Origin: an uncultured Alphaproteobacteria bacterium
Lineage (GTDB): Bacteria; Pseudomonadota; Alphaproteobacteria; SP197
Length of the DNA stretch: 46,711 bases
Direction of reading: 5' to 3'
NCBI GenBank assembly: GCA_938048755.1
Contig: CALIUG010000231.1
Location: 1 to 46,711 of the forward strand
The translations under genes and the position numbers were made by a program. Positions 3,252-33,001 of the stretch are shown here, piece after piece (the first letter of the stretch is position 1; the number at the start of each line of letters is the position of its first letter). The notes beneath the pieces are model-generated. The model worked only from the letters and a program-made list of their open reading frames with translations, had not been told where the DNA came from and ran no database searches.

Positions 3252-4001
3252 ATGACCAAGACGATCATCGTGACCGGCGCAAGCCGGGGTATCGGCGCTG
3301 CCACGGCCGTACGTGCCGGTCAGAACGGCTGGCGTGTCTGCGTCAACTACAACAGCTCGCCCGACAAGGCCGAGGAAGTCGCCGCTGCTGTGAAGGTCGC
3401 AGGCGGTGAGGCCTTCACGTTCAAGGCCAGCCAGGGCGTGGAATCCGAACTGGTCGCCATGTTCGAAGAGGTGGACAGGCGCTGGGGCCCCATTGATGCG
3501 CTGTGCAACAACGCCGGCATCGATCACGAGGTCGAAATTGCCGAGAGCACGTGGGACAACTACATGAAGGTCTTCAACGTCAACATTCTGGGCCTCATGG
3601 CGAGTTGCCGCGAAGGGGTGCAGCGCATGTCGACCAAGCGCGGCGGAAAGGGCGGATCGATCGTGAACATTGGTTCGATCTCCGCACGCACGGGCGGGCT
3701 GCCCAAGGATGTCATCTACACAGCGACCAAGGGGGCAGTCGACAGCTTTACGCTGGGCCTGGCCAAGGAGGTCGGTGGCGAAGGTGTTCGCGTCAACTGC
3801 GTGCGTCCCGGCGTGATCGAAACCGACATTTTTGCCGGAAACGAGTTCGGCCTTGCCGAAGTCAAGGAACTGGTCAAGAAGCTGGCACCCCTCGGCCGCA
3901 TCGGCCAGCCCGAAGAAATTGCCAACATGGCGGTCTGGTTGATGTCCGATGAAGCCAGTTACTGCACCGGCATGTGCTACGACGTCAGTGGCGGGCGATA
4001 G
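3252..4001 (+). CDS. SDR family oxidoreductase
   Basis: The protein is 249 aa if started at ATG 3252. An in-frame start further upstream would overlap the M81 gene by about 65 bp and only adds non-homologous residues. It is a classical short-chain dehydrogenase: TGASRGIG nucleotide loop at residues 8-15, NNAG motif, and a catalytic Ser (NIGSIS) with Tyr156-x3-Lys160 (YTATK). It ends with the common tail CTGMCYDVSGGR. Resemblance to 3-oxoacyl-ACP and glucose dehydrogenases is only at family level, so the substrate is unknown. It lies 13 bp after the M81 peptidase, so joint transcription is likely. Confidence 0.9.
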   Translation: MTKTIIVTGASRGIGAATAVRAGQNGWRVCVNYNSSPDKAEEVAAAVKVAGGEAFTFKASQGVESELVAMFEEVDRRWGPIDALCNNAGIDHEVEIAESTWDNYMKVFNVNILGLMASCREGVQRMSTKRGGKGGSIVNIGSISARTGGLPKDVIYTATKGAVDSFTLGLAKEVGGEGVRVNCVRPGVIETDIFAGNEFGLAEVKELVKKLAPLGRIGQPEEIANMAVWLMSDEASYCTGMCYDVSGGR

Positions 4002-21826: not shown

Positions 21827-24043
21827 TCACGGCGCCTCGAACGGTTCCTCATCCACGAACCGCCGCACCACATTCTCCAGCAGCCGGCTGACATTGTTGT
21901 CATAGGTGTTGTGGGCCAGTGAGCCTGCGAACGCGATGGAGCTTGTCGAGAACACCGCACCGCCATTGGGCGTTTCGTAAAACACCATGTCGCAACGCAC
22001 ATGCGGGCAGTTCTCGCCGTTGACGGCCGAATGGGAGTGGTTGAACTCCTCTTTCACCCAATGCACATCAACGCCGAATTCCGTTGCTTCGGCGACGACC
22101 AGGGCATGGGGCGGAGTACCTTCCTCATGGTCGATGCTGTCGATCTCGCTGCCGGCCGCCCCACCCAGGACGGTGCCGAAATCACCGATCTTCTCGTCAC
22201 GCCCGATGCCCTCGAACATCCAGGACGCACGCGGGTCCTCGCTTGCGTCCGTGCGCAGATAGTGGCTCGCGTGGTTGAAGCCCTGCGCGGCAAACCCGGT
22301 GCCGCAGATGGCCTCGGGCGATAGTCCGTTCCTGCGCCACAGGCCGCCCAGCTCGCCGGTAAAGCTCATGTAGTACTCGCCGCCCTCGGCAATCCAGCTT
22401 CGCATGCCATCTTCGGCGCGGCGCATTTCCATCACGCCGGGCAGGCTGGGGTGCAGGGCTACGCGCCAGTAGAATCCGTTGCCGCCCATATAGATGAAAC
22501 GCCCGCCCTTCTGCTGGTAGTTGAGCAGGGCATGCATCATCTCGGTCGTATAGTACTCGGGATGCGTCGTGGTCATGACGCAGTCGTAATGCTCCAGCAG
22601 GCTGACACCTTCGGCATGCATGTCGTCATCGGTGATGACATCGAAGTCGATTCCTTTCTCTTCCAGCCAATCGGTAATGTGGGTGTCGGCGTTGTACTGC
22701 CAGAGGTTTGCGCGCGGTCCCATATGCATGAAGGGACGCAGGCGCGAGGCATAGGCCACGCCGGACCCGTCTGAATGGTTGTCATACATCGACAGGCCAT
22801 GTTCGGGATGCATGTGGAGATGCATGTCTTCCATGTCGAACATCGTGAACGTATTGCCGCTGTGTTCGCCCAGCGTGCCCCAGTCATAGGCCATGTGGTT
22901 GTTGACATAGGCATAGTAGCTGCAGGTCGCGATGAGCAGTGCGAGCTTTGCGGTCGGCTTGCCCGTGGGCGGTCGGACATAGAACGGAATGTAGAACCAC
23001 TGGTCGCCCTGTGTCAGCTCCACGCAATAGGTGCCACTCTTGGTGCCTTCGGGAACGGTCCAGGAGGCATCGGTCTCCCAGCCACAGTCATAGACATCGT
23101 CATCATGGAAATGGATGGCGCCGTAATGTTCGGGCTTGTGCGTCCAGACCATCTCGCTGCCGTCGTGATTCCAGCCCTTCATCGCACGCGTGGGCATGTT
23201 GACGATGGCGCCGTGATGCCGGTTTGCACTGACATCATGGGCCGTGATTCCCGCCATGTCCTTGCTGAAGTCCCACAGGGCGACCACGTCGGTAGCCAGA
23301 TCACGGGGAATGCTGCGCTCCTTCAGGCGCTCCATGGAAGCGCGTGACAGGGCCCGGTTCACGACACAGGGCGTGTCGATCTTGCCGTTGAACAGGCCAT
23401 CGGCGACCACCGGGCCGTCGTTGCCGCTGTTATGGGCGGCAATCAGGAACCGGCCGCCCGTTCCAGGCTTCACCGTCATGGTTAGCTCCTGGTTCGCCTT
23501 GTCGTGTTCGCCGGCGTAACGGGTCAGAGGCTCCTGAACCAGGACAGTCTTGCCGGTCTGGGCGTCGAAGCTTGCGGAGACGAAGTACCAGCGCCGTTCA
23601 TGCATGGCGGCGCCCGATGCAAGGCTCTCCGTCTTTTCCCCATCGCCGATCTGCAGCACGGCCTCACCGTCACGCATCATGATCCTGTAACCGGATCCTG
23701 CTGCACCATCCCAGGCTCCCATGACGGTCTGCTCATCTTTCGAAAGCAAGGTGGGCCAGATCAGTGCCTGGATCGTGAAACTCTCCAGGGCAAAGGCGTC
23801 CGGCCGGTCGATCGAAACGAAGGAGCCGATCTGCGTGGCCTGGTATCGGGCGGTGTAGTCACCGTTGACGTCGGCATCGATGATGCGCTGCTTCAGGCCG
23901 GGGCCGCCGGGGGAATCATCGCCGCTACGGATATGTACGATCTGGAGATGAAACTGGCCCTCATCCTCGCTCGAAACCTTGAAGTTGAGCGTCTGACCCG
24001 GCTGAACGCTGATTTCATCGGTGTAACCCAGCAAGCGTCGCAT
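21827..24043 (-). CDS. N,N-dimethylformamidase large-subunit-like protein (paralogue A)
   Basis: The protein is 738 aa from ATG 24043 with AAGGA eight bases upstream. It resembles the large (beta) subunit of N,N-dimethylformamidase, which hydrolyses dimethylformamide to dimethylamine and formate. It has an N-terminal beta region (1-~75), a LamG/ConA-like domain (about 80-245; FTIQALIWPTLL, RRWYFVSASFDA, ADGLFNGKIDTP), then the C-terminal catalytic-type domain (HYGAIHFHDDD, HTHITDW-like NADTHITDWLEE, THPEYYTTEM, YMGGNGFYWR, TGELGGLWRR). Published work on the enzyme reports an iron held by two Tyr and one Glu; conserved residues in HPEY, GFYW and GELGG are candidates. It is the last of three paralogues and differs at HPEYY, where the others have HPEYW. 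Confidence 0.8.
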   Translation of the reverse strand: MRRLLGYTDEISVQPGQTLNFKVSSEDEGQFHLQIVHIRSGDDSPGGPGLKQRIIDADVNGDYTARYQATQIGSFVSIDRPDAFALESFTIQALIWPTLLSKDEQTVMGAWDGAAGSGYRIMMRDGEAVLQIGDGEKTESLASGAAMHERRWYFVSASFDAQTGKTVLVQEPLTRYAGEHDKANQELTMTVKPGTGGRFLIAAHNSGNDGPVVADGLFNGKIDTPCVVNRALSRASMERLKERSIPRDLATDVVALWDFSKDMAGITAHDVSANRHHGAIVNMPTRAMKGWNHDGSEMVWTHKPEHYGAIHFHDDDVYDCGWETDASWTVPEGTKSGTYCVELTQGDQWFYIPFYVRPPTGKPTAKLALLIATCSYYAYVNNHMAYDWGTLGEHSGNTFTMFDMEDMHLHMHPEHGLSMYDNHSDGSGVAYASRLRPFMHMGPRANLWQYNADTHITDWLEEKGIDFDVITDDDMHAEGVSLLEHYDCVMTTTHPEYYTTEMMHALLNYQQKGGRFIYMGGNGFYWRVALHPSLPGVMEMRRAEDGMRSWIAEGGEYYMSFTGELGGLWRRNGLSPEAICGTGFAAQGFNHASHYLRTDASEDPRASWMFEGIGRDEKIGDFGTVLGGAAGSEIDSIDHEEGTPPHALVVAEATEFGVDVHWVKEEFNHSHSAVNGENCPHVRCDMVFYETPNGGAVFSTSSIAFAGSLAHNTYDNNVSRLLENVVRRFVDEEPFEAP

Positions 24044-24077
24044 GTTCGTGTTCCTTCCAGAGATCGGAGCAGGGATG

Positions 24078-25007
24078 TCAGGGATTCAGAGTATAGACCG
24101 GCCCATCGGGGACAAGTGCGGCGTCCCGAAGAGCGGTCAGATCATGTTGGTTCATCAGGGTTTGCAGGGATGCCACGTAGGCATCGTCCTTTTCGGAATA
24201 GGCCGTCAGCTTTGTTGCCAGGGCATAACCATCCAGCGAACCCCCAGCCGCGCGTTGGCTGGCGCGCAAGTCACGCAACCCGGCATAGGCGTCGTGGCTG
24301 TTCAGGTTCAGCATGTAGGCCTCGACGCTCGAGAGCAATTCGGGGAAGGCCGCAACGCGGTTGGTGTCGTGCCGTTGCCCGCCTTCGGGCACCATACCTT
24401 CGCCGTTGAAGGTCCACTGACCGAACAGGGCGTTGCCTTCATGGGCAAACCTGGAACTGCCCCAACCGCTCTCGATGGCCGCCTGCGCCAGCACCAGAGA
24501 GACCGGAACACCATCGACTCGGGGCAGCAGAGCGCCAATCGTGGTTTCGGGATCATCATCCAGGGTCGTGGGGTCAACGCGGTACTGCACCACCTGGTCG
24601 CCCAGCCAGGAGAGGTCACGCTTTGATAGCGATTTGCCGGACGCCAGTTCATCCTGCATCGCGATCAGGCGTTGCCGGTCATCGGCAATTTCGGCATTCG
24701 ACAGAAGAGCCAGCGGCAGGATGGATTTCAGAAATAGTCTGGAGCGACGTGGTGACCCGTCGAGGTCAAGCCAGTTGTCGGGAAAGGCTGTGAGATCGAT
24801 GCGTGGGACCGGTGCATTCTCGGTTATGACGGCCGCGAGCGTGTATTCGATCTCGGAATAGAAGGTTTCGAGGTCGCGGACCTTCTCGATCTCGATTGTG
24901 CGAATACGTGCCTGTGACACATGGCCGATGACATAGGTCGCAGCGGCCAGAAACACGATGAGCGCAACCACAGCGGCAACAAAAAACGGAAAGGTGCCGC
25001 GCTGCAT
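24078..25007 (-). CDS. Bax-like glucosaminidase-domain protein with N-terminal membrane anchor
   Basis: The protein is 309 aa from ATG 25007, one base after the stop of paralogue B; a longer in-frame reading into that gene is a shadow. One N-terminal transmembrane segment (FPFFVAAVVALIVFLAAATY) is followed by a periplasmic region and a mannosyl-glycoprotein endo-beta-N-acetylglucosaminidase-like domain (GH73/lysozyme-like) from about 160: VSLVLAQAAIESGWGSSRF with the catalytic-type Glu, then GNALFGQWTF and FPELLSSVEAYMLNLN. E. coli Bax has the same design and is thought to act on peptidoglycan. Finding it tightly packed between two amidase paralogues is unusual. It sits 34 bp before paralogue A. 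Confidence 0.85.
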   Translation of the reverse strand: MQRGTFPFFVAAVVALIVFLAAATYVIGHVSQARIRTIEIEKVRDLETFYSEIEYTLAAVITENAPVPRIDLTAFPDNWLDLDGSPRRSRLFLKSILPLALLSNAEIADDRQRLIAMQDELASGKSLSKRDLSWLGDQVVQYRVDPTTLDDDPETTIGALLPRVDGVPVSLVLAQAAIESGWGSSRFAHEGNALFGQWTFNGEGMVPEGGQRHDTNRVAAFPELLSSVEAYMLNLNSHDAYAGLRDLRASQRAAGGSLDGYALATKLTAYSEKDDAYVASLQTLMNQHDLTALRDAALVPDGPVYTLNP

Positions 25008-25008
25008 T

Positions 25009-27201
25009 TCAGGGCGCCGGGATCGGTTGGGCGTCAGCAAACCGGCGCAGAACGTTCCCGGTGATCCGCGCAACGTTGTTGTCGTAGCCATTCCACGCCA
25101 GCGATGTGCTCCATGCAATGGAGCCGGTCGACCACACGGCACCACCTTCCGGCGTCTCGAAGAAGACCATGTCGGCACGCACCGCCTGGTTGACCGGTGC
25201 CGCGACCGCGGTGTGGTTGAAGGTCATCGTGTCGAGAGTCTGCAGATACTGGGGTGAATGGTCGGCCGAACTTGCCAGACGCAGGCAATGGTCCGGTGTG
25301 CCCAGTGAGCGGTCGATCCAGTCGAGTTCGAGGCCGGATGCGCCACCCAACTGGCCGAAGTCGCCGATCTTCTCGTCGGCGCCAACGCCGTCGAAGATCC
25401 ATTGCGCGCGGGGATGGAAGCTGTCGGGCAGGCGTTCGTAGTGGCTGCAGGAATCAAAGCCCGTTGCGACCGTGCCGATCCCAACCAGTTGCTGGGGTGC
25501 AATGCCGATGCGCTGCCAGAGACCGCCCAACTCGCCGGAAAACGCCATGTGGTATTCGCCAGGCTCGGCAATCCAGTATCGCGCGCCGGCCTGCGCACGC
25601 CGGATCTCCAGCGCCCAGGGCGCTTCCTCGTGGAAGGCGATGCGCCAGTAGAACCCGTTGCCGCCCATATACATCAGGCGTCCGCCAGATTTCAGATAAT
25701 CGGTCATGGCCTGCCACATGGCGGTTGACCAGTATTCGGGATGCGCCCCGGTCACCACGACCTTGTAGGGTGCCAGAAGTTCCAGGCCCTCGTCATGCAG
25801 GAAGTGGTCGCTGATCGCATCCCAGGCAAAGCCTTCATCGTCCAGCCAAGCCGTCAGGTGGGTATCGGCGTTGAAACTCCAGACACCGGCTTTGGGGCGG
25901 TACCCCAGCATGGGCCGCCGTGCGCTCGCGACCGAAACACCGCTGCCGTCGCTGTGGGTGTCATAGGGCGAGTGGCCGAGTTCGCGGTGTTCGAAAAGAT
26001 AGGTATCATCGCGCGACAGGATGGTCGCGGAAGCCGACCGCATTTCTGCACCGGCATCGTCGGTGCTGTGGTGCATGTTGGCGTACGTCTGGTAAGTCGC
26101 GGTCGAAGCCAGGAAGGCAATGGCGTTCTTGGGCGCATCCCGTCCGGGCTGCACGACCACGGGCGGCATGTCTTCGGTGCCATTTCCCGAAAGCCGGATG
26201 CAATAGATCCCGCTCTTCAGGTCGTCGGGCAGCTTGACCTCGACGCTCGGTGACCATCCGGCATCGCCCAGGTCATCATCATGCAGATGGATCGCGCCAT
26301 ACTGATCCTGGGCATGGCGCCAGTCGTGCTGATCACTCGTCCAGGTGCTGCCGGTCATCGCACGGGTCGGCAGGTTGACGGTGTGTCCGTGACAGCCGTT
26401 GCCCGAGACATCTTTGACCCCGAGGCTCCTGATTGATCGGGAGAAGTCCCATGCCAGAAGACAGTCGCCGGCAGACGCGATCTCTGTAACAGTTCCGGCA
26501 ACACGCGGCGCCTCGACCTTGCCGTTGAAACACATGACAGGCCGGATGCCGTCGGCATTACCCTTGCCGCCCCCGGCCGCGCCAACCAGGAACGGAACGT
26601 CACCATGGCGCGCCGGGCCGGTTTCATGGGCTCCCCTGGCTTGCCTGGTTGTCTCGCCGCGGCCGTCCATGTTGCAGGGTTTCTGGGACACGTTCACCTG
26701 TCCCGTCGCGGCATCGTGGCTCGCGGTGACGTGGTACCATTCGCGTGCGGTCAGCAGGCTCTTGGTTGCCGTGCGTGAAACCGATCCGCTGCCATCGCCG
26801 GTTGTCAGCGCTGTGCCCTCTGGGCCGATGCTGAGCAGATACCCTGCCTGGCGTTCCTCATCCCAGACACCCATCACGGCCTGCTCACGACTCACCGGCG
26901 TGGTCGGCCAGAGCATGATCTCCAGACTGAACGAGGCCAGGTCTGACAACGTGCTGGAATCGTCGGCCACGATGAAAGATCCCGCTTGAACCGGCTGGTT
27001 GTCGAGTGCGACGGTCTGCTGGGCAACGCCGGTTGCTTCCTCGCGGTAGCCAGGCCCCTTGGGACTGTCATCGCCGCAGATCAGGCGAACCAGGTCAACC
27101 TTGGCGCTCTCCACGCCTTCGCCGCTGGCATAAACGGTCACGGTATCTCCGGGTCGCGCCCAGAGCTTGTCAGTATAGGAGAGGATGCGTGGGCGCGTCA
27201 T
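25009..27201 (-). CDS. N,N-dimethylformamidase large-subunit-like protein (paralogue B)
   Basis: The protein is 730 aa; ATG 27201 overlaps the stop of paralogue C in an ATGA, so the two are translationally coupled. Domain order is the same as in paralogue A: beta region with ILSYTDKLWARPGDTV, LamG-like domain (FSLEIMLWPTTP, REWYHVTASHDA, CFNGKVEAPRV), then the large C-terminal domain with NADTHLTAWLDD, TGAHPEYWSTAMWQ, YMGGNGFYWR and SGELGGLWQR. The candidate iron-binding Tyr and Glu residues are all kept, so it is probably active on an amide. Identity to a true dimethylformamidase cannot be measured here. Confidence 0.8.
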   Translation of the reverse strand: MTRPRILSYTDKLWARPGDTVTVYASGEGVESAKVDLVRLICGDDSPKGPGYREEATGVAQQTVALDNQPVQAGSFIVADDSSTLSDLASFSLEIMLWPTTPVSREQAVMGVWDEERQAGYLLSIGPEGTALTTGDGSGSVSRTATKSLLTAREWYHVTASHDAATGQVNVSQKPCNMDGRGETTRQARGAHETGPARHGDVPFLVGAAGGGKGNADGIRPVMCFNGKVEAPRVAGTVTEIASAGDCLLAWDFSRSIRSLGVKDVSGNGCHGHTVNLPTRAMTGSTWTSDQHDWRHAQDQYGAIHLHDDDLGDAGWSPSVEVKLPDDLKSGIYCIRLSGNGTEDMPPVVVQPGRDAPKNAIAFLASTATYQTYANMHHSTDDAGAEMRSASATILSRDDTYLFEHRELGHSPYDTHSDGSGVSVASARRPMLGYRPKAGVWSFNADTHLTAWLDDEGFAWDAISDHFLHDEGLELLAPYKVVVTGAHPEYWSTAMWQAMTDYLKSGGRLMYMGGNGFYWRIAFHEEAPWALEIRRAQAGARYWIAEPGEYHMAFSGELGGLWQRIGIAPQQLVGIGTVATGFDSCSHYERLPDSFHPRAQWIFDGVGADEKIGDFGQLGGASGLELDWIDRSLGTPDHCLRLASSADHSPQYLQTLDTMTFNHTAVAAPVNQAVRADMVFFETPEGGAVWSTGSIAWSTSLAWNGYDNNVARITGNVLRRFADAQPIPAP

Positions 27202-29438
27202 GGCAGAGGGTCATCCTTCTCGAAGGTCTTCAGCACATTGACGGTCAGGCGGCTGACATTGTTGTCATAACCGTTGTGCCCCAGGCTGGCTGCCCAGCTG
27301 ATGGACCCAGTGGCAAAGACACCCGCACCCGATGGCAGGGTGTAGTAGATCATGTCAGCGCGCACGCGCGGGTTGGCGTCGCCTGTCACGGCGGCGTGGT
27401 TGAAGACGATCTCGTCAGGACTTTGCATGTAGTAGGCCGAATGGCCTTCCGAGCGCGCCAGCACGATGGTGTCGGGCGGTGATCCCAGGCTTTCATCGAC
27501 CCCGTCGAGCTCGATGCCAGCTGCGCCGTTCCCCAGGACACCGAAGTCGCCGATGATCTCTTCTTCGATCCCGTCAAAGACCCATGCCGCGCGCGGGTTG
27601 TCCTCCACACCAGGCTCCTTCACGAACCAGCCACAGCGGTCAAAGCCCGTGGCAAAGGTGCCGATGCCAACCAGGGATTGCGGTGGCCGTCCGATGCGTT
27701 TCCACAAGCCGCCCAGTTCGCCGTTGAAACTCTGGTAATACTCGCCGGGCAGGGAAGCCCAGAACCGTGCACCGGATTCCGCGCGCCGGATTTCGATCGC
27801 GGTTCCCGGGTGTTCGGGATGATAGGCAATGCGCCAGTAGAACCCGTTGCCGCCCAGATACATCATGCGTCCGCCGCCATCGAAATAGGCGGTGAGCGCA
27901 TCCCACATCTCGCTCGTCCAGTATTCGGGATGCGCACCGGTCACGATGACGTTGTAGTCGGCCAGCGCCGAGACACCCTCATAGTGAATCTCCTCATCGG
28001 TCACGACATCGAAATCAAAGCCCTGCGCCTCCATCCAATCGGTCACATGGGTGTCGGCGTTGAAGCTCCAGATGATCGATTTGACGTTGAAGTTGAGCAC
28101 GATGGGCCGCAGGCGCGAGCTGTAGATGGAACCTGACCCGTCGCGGTGCGTGTCATAGGTCGACAGCCCCAGGTCGCACCGTTCGTTGAGGAACAGTTCG
28201 TCCCCGGTATAGGCAACGATGCGCCCGCGTTTGACCTCGGCCTTTTCCTCATCAACTTGCCAGTGGTTGTTGGCATAGGCCATGTAGGTCGCGGTCGATC
28301 CCAGAAACGCGATTTTTGCCTTCTTTGCGCCGGGGGCAGGGCGCACATAAAACGGGATGTAACATTCATCCTCCCCGGCCCGACAGCGCGCGGCGTAAAT
28401 GCCGCTTTTGAGGCCTTCGGGCACGGTCATGGTCACGGTGGTTTCCCAGCCCGCGTCATAGAGATCGTCGTCGTGGAAATGCACGGCGCCGTAGTGCTCG
28501 GGCTTCACGGTCCAGTCGTGACAGGAACTGTCCCAGTGATAGCCGGTCACCGCGCGCGTGGGCAGGTTGACCAGGCGGCCATGCAGGTTGTTGCCGGACA
28601 CGTCCGGGAAGGTGCTGGTGGGGATATCCCGGCTGAAATCCCAGGCGCCGACGATCCATTCCGCGCCTACCGGTTTCACTCGGGCCATCTTCGACATCTC
28701 GTGGCAGATCACGACCTTGGACGCCAGGCGCGGTGAATCGATGCGCCCGTTGAAGAGCCCCGCCATGCGTGGTCGCCCATCCTCGTGCCAACCGACCTGC
28801 CAGCCTGCGATGTGGAGGTCGTGTTCTGCCGCGAAGCAAATCCCCTTGGGAGCCTCGCCATAGACATGGGCATAACTGTCGGCGCCGACATATCGCTCGT
28901 CTGGCTCCTGCCACAACTCAACCTCGCCGGTTGCGGCATCATAACTCGCCGAAACGAACGCCCATTTCCACGGCAGCATCGGAACCCCGGTCGAGACCGT
29001 CACCAGGTCTTCGCCGTTGCCGACCATCAGCGCCAGTGCGCCATCACCATCCAGAATGACGGCAAAGCCCGGCTTCTTCGGTCCGGAACCCCGGCTGATC
29101 AGCGCCTGCCTGCCATCCCCGGGCAGCGTGGGCATGACATAGGCCTGGAACGTGAAGCTCGATAGCCGGTCCAGCGCGGGTGCCCTGGGCACCACCGCAT
29201 AGGATCCCGCATCAATCCGCTGGAACCGCCCGGCATGACTGCCGTCGGCATCGGTCTCGATCTCGACTTCCCTGTAGGGCGCGCCCGCTGGAGTCTCGAC
29301 ACCGCACACCACACGCACGGCCTTGAAGTCGAAGGTCTCGTGCTCCTCCAGGCTGATCTTGAAACCGATCTGGTCGCCGGGCTGCACACTGATCCTGTCC
29401 GCGTATCCCAGCACCCGGCGTTTGTAATCAAAGGTCAT
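27198..29438 (-). CDS. N,N-dimethylformamidase large-subunit-like protein (paralogue C)
   Basis: The protein is 746 aa from ATG 29438; a TTG two codons earlier is closer to the GAGG site and could also be used. Signature blocks are RRVLGYADRISVQPGD, the LamG-like part (FTFQAYVMPTLP, WKWAFVSASYDA, GLFNGRIDSPRL), and the C-terminal domain NADTHVTDWMEA, TGAHPEYWTSEMWD, YLGGNGFYWRIAYHP, NGELGGLWKR. It is the first of the three large-subunit-like genes in transcription order and the closest to the small-subunit-like sequence, 226 bp upstream. That spacing makes it the best partner candidate. Confidence 0.8.
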   Translation of the reverse strand: MTFDYKRRVLGYADRISVQPGDQIGFKISLEEHETFDFKAVRVVCGVETPAGAPYREVEIETDADGSHAGRFQRIDAGSYAVVPRAPALDRLSSFTFQAYVMPTLPGDGRQALISRGSGPKKPGFAVILDGDGALALMVGNGEDLVTVSTGVPMLPWKWAFVSASYDAATGEVELWQEPDERYVGADSYAHVYGEAPKGICFAAEHDLHIAGWQVGWHEDGRPRMAGLFNGRIDSPRLASKVVICHEMSKMARVKPVGAEWIVGAWDFSRDIPTSTFPDVSGNNLHGRLVNLPTRAVTGYHWDSSCHDWTVKPEHYGAVHFHDDDLYDAGWETTVTMTVPEGLKSGIYAARCRAGEDECYIPFYVRPAPGAKKAKIAFLGSTATYMAYANNHWQVDEEKAEVKRGRIVAYTGDELFLNERCDLGLSTYDTHRDGSGSIYSSRLRPIVLNFNVKSIIWSFNADTHVTDWMEAQGFDFDVVTDEEIHYEGVSALADYNVIVTGAHPEYWTSEMWDALTAYFDGGGRMMYLGGNGFYWRIAYHPEHPGTAIEIRRAESGARFWASLPGEYYQSFNGELGGLWKRIGRPPQSLVGIGTFATGFDRCGWFVKEPGVEDNPRAAWVFDGIEEEIIGDFGVLGNGAAGIELDGVDESLGSPPDTIVLARSEGHSAYYMQSPDEIVFNHAAVTGDANPRVRADMIYYTLPSGAGVFATGSISWAASLGHNGYDNNVSRLTVNVLKTFEKDDPLP

Positions 29439-29603
29439 CGCCAACCATCCTCAACATCCGTCATGGCCTCACGCGATGGGGCCATCCATGCCGTTAACTC
29501 CTGCAGACGTGTTGTCGGTTGTGATGCGCGCGAACTCATGGCGTCGATGTACTTCCGGCTTGTGATGGACGGGCGGTATCGGACTGCACGGCCTCAGGCA
29601 TGG

Positions 29604-29663: not shown

Positions 29664-29966
29664 TCACCCGTCCAGTTCGACACCCGTGTGTTTCTTCCAG
29701 CGCAGCTTGAAGATATGCCACTCGGCCTCGCCAAGGTCATCGAACTTGACGTCCTCGTGCAGGGTCACCGGAATGCCGCGTTTGCCGGGTAGCTGAGCCA
29801 GGCACCATTCCTTGTGCGGCACGGTGTTCACCAGCACATATTTGCCCTCGACCGGCTCCCAGCGCATCACGTTCAGAACCTTCTGAAGCTCGGCGCTGTG
29901 CGGCCCGAATGGATTGGCCTTGAACTCGTCGGCCAGTTCGGTCTTTGCCGGATCAATTTTGTACAT
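29664..29966 (-). CDS. N,N-dimethylformamidase small-subunit-like protein (internal start)
   Basis: An ATG at 29966 with GAGGAA six bases upstream would give a 100-aa protein. The segment FKANPFGPHSAELQKVLNVM, then EGKYVLVNT, HKEWCLAQLPGKRGIPV and the acidic/aromatic end recall, from memory, the small alpha subunit of dimethylformamidase, which pairs with the large subunit. That subunit is somewhat longer (about 130 aa). It lies directly upstream of three large-subunit-like genes, in the expected small-then-large order. The same frame stays open upstream into a membrane-protein reading frame, so it may be translated from its own start, as a fusion, or both. The start call rests on the ribosome-binding site. 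Confidence 0.65.
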   Translation of the reverse strand: MYKIDPAKTELADEFKANPFGPHSAELQKVLNVMRWEPVEGKYVLVNTVPHKEWCLAQLPGKRGIPVTLHEDVKFDDLGEAEWHIFKLRWKKHTGVELDG

Positions 29967-30677
29967 GTCCAATTCCTCAATGTGCGATGCGAGACGTGCC
30001 ATTTGTGGGGAGATTAGAGCGCTCTCGGCCGAGGCATTCAAGGCTTCAGACCGTTTGTGATGCCATATTGTCTCGAATCGTTCGGAGTGTTGGTTGTTGA
30101 TGCTTAGGTACGTTGCTGACGGGGTAGGACAGAGCCTTGCGATACCCGTCATCAGTTCCATTGCGGTCGTATCTGCTGTACCGAGGTCGACTAGGAATCC
30201 GGTTTCTATCTTCTGCGCTTTGGGTGAAACATAGAACCATCGCGGACGACCCGGATCCCAATGCTCGGATTGAGCGCGCGTATAGATGACCAGTGTTTCA
30301 ACGGACGCCCACGGGATGCTCTCAGATCCAAAAAAGGTATTGAAGCGCTCCACACCTTGATCATCTATGCGCAAACGCGGCCTCAATGTAATCAGATTTC
30401 GGAGCTTGAGCACGCAAAACAGCGAAAAAAGGATCGCCGCAGGTAAGGAAAAAACCAGCATTGCGACACCAAAGCTGATGTTTCCAGACAAGTCGGCATA
30501 GGCCGCAGCAATCCAGAATGGCGTAGCAAGTGCTGCCGGGGCTATCGATGCAAGTAGCGTTCGACCGCTGGTCTCACGAATCTCCAGCGCTTCATCGGAC
30601 TTGTCGTCAAGCATGCTCAAGGTTGAGAAGTCTCCGGTTGCGTGCAGACCTCTATGGGCGCGAACGGATGCGATCAC
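29664..30677 (-). CDS. Two-TM membrane protein with PH-like domain, in frame with the small-subunit-like end
   Basis: A continuous 337-codon frame runs from GTG 30677 (or ATG 30614, neither with a good site) to the stop at 29664. Residues ~40-95 form two hydrophobic helices (LLASIAPAALATPFWIAAA, GVAMLVFSLPAAILFSLFCV). A beta-rich segment follows (LRIDDQGVERFNTFFG, IPWASVETLVIYTR), of the layout seen in STM3941-type PH-like proteins. The last 100 residues are the dimethylformamidase small-subunit-like sequence. Base composition falls to about 50% GC over roughly 29990-30700, unlike the surroundings. The simplest view is an inserted membrane-protein gene that lost its stop and now reads into the older small-subunit gene. 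Function unknown. Confidence 0.55.
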   Translation of the reverse strand: MIASVRAHRGLHATGDFSTLSMLDDKSDEALEIRETSGRTLLASIAPAALATPFWIAAAYADLSGNISFGVAMLVFSLPAAILFSLFCVLKLRNLITLRPRLRIDDQGVERFNTFFGSESIPWASVETLVIYTRAQSEHWDPGRPRWFYVSPKAQKIETGFLVDLGTADTTAMELMTGIARLCPTPSATYLSINNQHSERFETIWHHKRSEALNASAESALISPQMARLASHIEELDMYKIDPAKTELADEFKANPFGPHSAELQKVLNVMRWEPVEGKYVLVNTVPHKEWCLAQLPGKRGIPVTLHEDVKFDDLGEAEWHIFKLRWKKHTGVELDG

Positions 30678-30753
30678 AGTCTCAACGCCGTCAGGATCGG
30701 CATCAAGACCTTAAACCCTGACGTCACAAATGTTGGGGCCTGCTTTGCTGGCC

Positions 30754-31287
30754 TCAGTCCCCTTTCCTCGACGCAGCGAGAAATTCGTTCAGGCGAACTG
30801 CCAATGCATCCTGACCCGCATCAATCGCTATCGAAGGTATGGCTATGGGGTGTTGGCTGAGTGAGCCATTGAGGCGAAGCATGAGCGATTGCATTGGGCC
30901 CAGGCGTTGCAGGATCTTGTTCAGATCCTTTGGTTTGATGCCGATATAGCTGCCTCCCATCCGGCCGGGTGTCTGGACGACTTCGATGGTCTCGATTTCG
31001 TGCCAGGCGATGAAACCAACTGGAAAAGCCGTCGTTCGAATGGTCAGCCCTTTCTGATCAACGACAAGTGGGGTGGGATTCAGGATGAGACGGAACAGGA
31101 AAAATGGAATCGCCAAACCAAAGAACGCGATGCAGCCATAACCGCCAATCAGCGCTCGCGTTTGACGCCCCGCCTCCCAGTCTGACGTAACCAGCCAAAC
31201 CCCACAGAGAACAAATGCTGCAGATGCAATCAAGCCAAACCAATGCTTCGACTTGGATGTCGAATAGACCAGCGGTTCGTCGATCAT
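30754..31287 (-). CDS. STM3941-like two-TM/PH-like membrane protein
   Basis: The protein is 177 aa from ATG 31287 with GGGAG six bases upstream. Two hydrophobic helices (WFGLIASAAFVLCGVWLVTS and GCIAFFGLAIPFFLFRLIL) are followed by a PH-like beta domain (TPLVVDQKGLTIRTTAFPVG, FIAWHEIETIEVV) and a C-terminal helix (DALAVRLNEFLAAS). This matches the STM3941 family of small bacterial membrane proteins with no known function. It has the same architecture as the neighbour downstream (76 bp away), and both lie in the same lower-GC patch, which suggests they arrived together. Confidence 0.7.
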   Translation of the reverse strand: MIDEPLVYSTSKSKHWFGLIASAAFVLCGVWLVTSDWEAGRQTRALIGGYGCIAFFGLAIPFFLFRLILNPTPLVVDQKGLTIRTTAFPVGFIAWHEIETIEVVQTPGRMGGSYIGIKPKDLNKILQRLGPMQSLMLRLNGSLSQHPIAIPSIAIDAGQDALAVRLNEFLAASRKGD

Positions 31288-31301
31288 GGATGCTCCCAAA
31301 G

Positions 31302-31332
31302 AAAAAGGGGCCGCAGTCTGCACTGCGGCCCC
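31302..31332 (-). terminator. Intrinsic terminator of groES-groEL
   Basis: GGGGCCGCAGT-CTGC-ACTGCGGCCCC is a perfect 11-bp stem. On the minus strand it is followed by TTTTTCTTT, so it ends the groES-groEL transcript 26 bp after the groEL stop. Confidence 0.93.
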
Positions 31333-31357
31333 CATTCTAACGCTCTGATCGCTTGGA

Positions 31358-33001
<1,644 letters not shown>

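Follow-up and report, generated by a model that had tools for sequence, protein, structure and literature searches.

The closest described system is the N,N-dimethylformamidase (DMFase) of Paracoccus (PDB 6lvb), in which the large subunit depends on the small subunit for activity, and the N-terminal segment of the small subunit is packed into the interface of the large subunits (PMC7686228). A second family of interest here is the STM3941 family (NF041635), which comprises small membrane proteins with two helices followed by a PH-like domain. Genes related to both are found in the window, i.e., the whole stretch of 46,711 nucleotides analysed here. The window is contig C231 of an incomplete, 4.16-Mb metagenome-assembled genome of 301 contigs, which is the one genome (G000) of its species among those compared. 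On its minus strand, the open reading frame list and translation give a stop-free frame at 29664..30677, 337 codons from a GTG, which consists of a PH-like membrane protein (PH1) at the N-terminus, a linker, and a 100-residue DMFase-like small subunit (sm) at the C-terminus. Upstream of sm lie PH1 and a second membrane protein gene (PH2), followed by groEL and groES.

Results

The sm gene (29664..29966, minus strand) encodes 100 amino acids. As a first-pass annotation of this DNA had pointed out, it has its own ATG at 29966 and its own ribosome-binding site; the latter is a GAGGAA at 29978-29973, six bases 5' of the ATG, and both are seen in the sequence. By phmmer, the product matches the DMFase small subunit with an E value of 0.015. 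Its AlphaFold model (pLDDT 89) matches 6lvb_B in Foldseek (E 5.9e-5, TM 0.75, rmsd 1.6, 28% identity), and sm is thus predicted to have the DMFase small-subunit fold. At 100 amino acids compared with 132 in Paracoccus, sm lacks approximately 33 N-terminal residues. A second in-frame ATG is present at 30000-30002, 12 codons 5' of sm and immediately 3' of the conserved element described below, and could yield a 112-residue variant.

As in Paracoccus, a large-subunit gene lies directly downstream of the small-subunit gene, both in the window and in every relative with a contig long enough to show it. In the window this gene, LA (27198..29444, minus strand), is the partner of sm; its product matches DMFA2_C (E 3e-91) and, over its full length, 6lvb_A (E 9e-147). 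Alignment to 6lvb_A showed that Y399, Y440, and E521, the iron ligands (numbered as in PMC7686228), are conserved in LA, as are the catalytic residues H519 and N547, the residues of the mononuclear iron site being identical in the two enzymes. Unlike the Paracoccus system, the window contains three large-subunit paralogues in tandem, the others being LB (25009..27201, minus strand; DMFA2_C E 8e-80) and LC (21827..24043, minus strand; DMFA2_C E 1e-87). The window thus holds three large-subunit paralogues (region 21827-29444) with a single small subunit, and a Bax/glucosaminidase-like gene (24078-25178) separates the second paralogue from the third. Across the GTDB family, genomes carry two to seven small-subunit copies (those of G000 include copies on contigs C106, C268, and C131), and one congener (G008) has none; judged by gene content, this copy number appears to be an unusual expansion of DMFase-like amidases. 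There are also at least seven paralogous single-chain genes of ~840-870 amino acids, with the small part first (L053, L054, and L096-L100, in G006, G002, G012, G010, G011, and G001). These resemble the apparent PH1-sm frame in that the small-subunit domain is covalently joined to a partner. However, the partner in the single-chain paralogues is the large subunit, joined in its natural order in five genomes, whereas the PH1-sm frame, present in a single genome, pairs the domain with an unrelated membrane protein.

PH2 (30754..31287, minus strand; 177 amino acids) belongs to the STM3941 family, scoring 84.2 bits against NF041635 (cut-off 40; E 8.5e-24), and has the two helices and PH-like part of that family. 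PH1 (30123..30614, minus strand; start at ATG 30614 or GTG 30677) is probably a two-helix PH-like membrane protein with low GC3. Its two hydrophobic stretches and its partial match to Pfam bPH_6, which at E 6e-5 is just above the cut-off, fit the initial description of a two-TM, PH-like protein upstream of sm. PH1 is related to the STM3941 family only remotely, at ~22 bits (21-23 bits, E 2e-4), under the curated cut-off of 40. The suggestion that the second protein shares the layout of PH1 holds for the layout, but sequence similarity is weak (BLASTP E 0.012). PH1 contains no internal stop and no evident frameshift. No PH1 homologues were found in 16 order-level, 385 class-level, and 398 phylum-level genomes, or in plasmids and viral contigs. 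Judged by alignment with PH2, the domain of PH1 ends at approximately residue 185.

STM3941-like genes recur beside groEL and the DMFase-like genes at differing positions, and one of them is broken (window 30754-31287; L052 1-628; L036 4310-4825; L037 ~3560-3900). Three congeners besides the window have such a gene at this locus, where all but one of the six STM3941 matches in the family are located; in G009 the gene lies directly behind groEL and is 36-37% identical to PH2. Tandem pairs like PH1/PH2 were also found elsewhere in the class (G277, G310, and G214). At class-level STM3941 loci outside the window's family, neither groEL nor a DMFase gene was found within 1.5 kb. This argues against the PH genes as general companions of groEL or DMFase, and with the STM3941 genes of other families in the class lying away from groEL/DMFase, no general functional link is shown.

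Orthologues of sm with 64-99% identity were found in 13 other genomes of the GTDB family. All are free-standing and without a PH part (a PH protein is joined to sm in 0 of 13), and the start Met of sm is common to them; the 14 aligned homologues share 25 invariant residues as well as this Met. The segment between groEL and sm differs among these genomes. A groEL terminator hairpin (31306..31333, minus strand; 12-pair stem and T-rich tail) is shared by the window and its closest relative, G013, whose sm is 99% identical. The two sequences are 97% identical up to the terminator, then diverge, and are 95% identical again from the sm start codon. In the window PH2 and PH1 begin right after the terminator, whereas in G013 sm follows ~200 bases on. 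The slot is empty in G013, G014, and G002, holds a helix-turn-helix gene in G001 (L043), and contains a flavin reductase gene and a broken STM3941-like gene in G007. The broken gene ends at a TGA in TCTGACAGG just 5' of the conserved element described below; the corresponding bases of the window are TCTGAAG, in which the TGA is not in register. In G013, a complete PH gene separates sm from LA and terminates at a stop of its own. An inserted pair of membrane genes, as initially proposed, agrees with a low-GC pair between groEL and sm that is absent from G013. However, the pair is not merely a recent insertion peculiar to this strain, because STM3941-like genes recur at this locus in the genus, where they move or decay.

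The frame does continue for 237 codons upstream of sm, as first described, and no stop was found between the two parts. If all 237 codons were noncoding, their openness would have a chance of ~0.001; it need not be noncoding chance, as PH1 is a plausible gene by itself. The 52 codons from the end of the PH1 domain to sm are stop-free in 20% of first-order Markov sequences of the patch. A stretch of at least 51 open codons precedes the gene in 14 of 37 distinct sm relatives, with some stretches of 227, 334, 472, or >500 codons; long open runs at this position are without meaning. GC falls from ~0.60-0.64 in the flanks to 0.51-0.56 across ~29750-31500; the first-pass annotation was right about a dip over ~30000-31290, but the drop is to ~52%, not to half of the flanking value. 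The codon statistics that it had named as a check also change at the sm ATG: GC3 is ~0.5-0.6 across PH1 and the linker and 0.73-0.83 in sm, with a step from ~0.55 to ~0.77 at this codon. This rise places a compositional boundary at sm's own start codon.

The linker (29967..30122, minus strand; residues 186-237) consists of the sm upstream region and up to ~25 codons of PH1 tail or spacer. Within it, pattern matching and alignment located a conserved promoter-like element, CTTGAATGCC...GCGCTCTAATC (30012..30042, minus strand), with the hexamers TTGAAT and TCTAAT 17 nt apart. Six genomes (G000, G001, G002, G007, G013, and G014) each contain a single exact match to the pattern CTTGN{15,19}GCGCTYWAMTC, in all six directly upstream of sm, 23-28 nt from the ATG except in the window (45 nt). 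The reversed pattern, used as a control, has none in these genomes. Two matches of a variant ending in CAAATC are present elsewhere in G010. The bases just 5' of sm in the window align with the G013 intergenic region at z 8.6 (0 of 500 shuffles). A possible second copy of the element in the PH2-PH1 gap was rejected, its alignment scores lying within those of shuffles. We infer that the element is a promoter, which a strict sigma-70 scan does not list because the second hexamer is TCTAAT. In the supposed fusion the element would be residues 212-222, and the last part of the linker, judged from its sequence, appears to be a conceptual translation of the regulatory region of sm. The linker has a GC3 of 0.58 and is modelled with pLDDT mostly <50; the predicted structure of the entire 337-residue frame is confident for the sm part only.

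Discussion

In the relatives sm is free-standing, the conserved element lies within the linker, composition steps at the sm ATG, and the slot behind groEL is variable. We therefore consider it very likely (probability approximately 0.88) that sm is free-standing and that the apparent PH1-sm fusion is accidental, the upstream region of sm being read through in register. The sm gene would then be an ordinary member of a DMFase-like amidase operon, sm-LA-LB, encoding the small subunit; its transcription would begin from the conserved upstream element, and its translation at the ATG at 29966. Between the groEL terminator and the element is a slot that varies among congeners and that here holds two low-GC, STM3941/PH-like membrane genes. 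PH1, the last of these, would lack a stop before the old sm upstream element; since the frame past PH1 is open and in register by chance, the gene finder extends it into sm. Free sm from the ATG at 29966, which the first-pass annotation had foreseen from an internal start, is the expected product, and as the Paracoccus large subunit has no activity on its own, the operon presumably needs a free, correctly started sm. Two findings speak against the accidental reading. The frame is genuinely open, and PH1 has no separate stop, so its translation would give a fusion unless ribosomes stop elsewhere. The spacing from the element to the ATG is 45 nt in the window compared with 23-28 nt in the others.

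A functional fusion, in which PH1 tethers the enzyme to the membrane through its small subunit while free sm is also made from the internal start, is hardly credible. The uninterrupted frame would allow it, and natural fusions of the small-subunit domain exist, at least seven paralogous frames joining it to the large subunit. However, the PH1-sm fusion is seen in no relative, the two parts being separate there, which is in substance the outcome that the first-pass annotation had named as a refutation, and its linker carries the conserved noncoding element and has a noncoding-like composition. A membrane protein would also be awkwardly placed at this site, since the Paracoccus small subunit has its N-terminal part at the large-subunit interface (PMC7686228), although sm lacks most of this extension. 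Model confidence is low for the linker and PH part, although this is uninformative given the absence of homologues. The tethered amidase envisaged initially thus finds no counterpart in the family. It is very improbable that the window's species produces PH1-sm by read-through and so brings part of its DMFase-like amidase to the membrane; a minor read-through product may occur, but we infer that any such protein would be a by-product at most.

How the frame arose is a separate matter. PH1 may end naturally within the linker, or it may have lost its stop by recent mutation or at an insertion junction, a decaying gene now running into sm. We regard such a loss as a tentative possibility: the same slot in G007 holds a visibly broken STM3941-like gene with a TGA before the element, where the window's TGA is out of register, and PH1 itself weakly matches the STM3941 family, but no homologue shows where PH1 properly ends, and PH1 has neither an internal stop nor an evident frameshift. 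A lost stop is compatible with the accidental reading and adds only the origin of the frame. Alternatively, an assembly or base-calling error may have removed a stop or shifted the frame, as could happen in an incomplete genome of 301 contigs; this is improbable, because synteny on both flanks is as in G013 and others, and the neighbouring genes show no sign of damage.

If PH1-sm were made after all, the recurring STM3941-like genes beside the operon in the genus would reflect a functional link to the amidase. Under the accidental reading, the locus is a caution for annotation: gene-calling software would join the small enzyme subunit to an upstream membrane protein that is unrelated to it, and the merged call would hide the real start of sm and suggest a membrane-tethered amidase. 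Comparison of relatives also reveals a variable gene slot between groEL and the DMFase-like operon.
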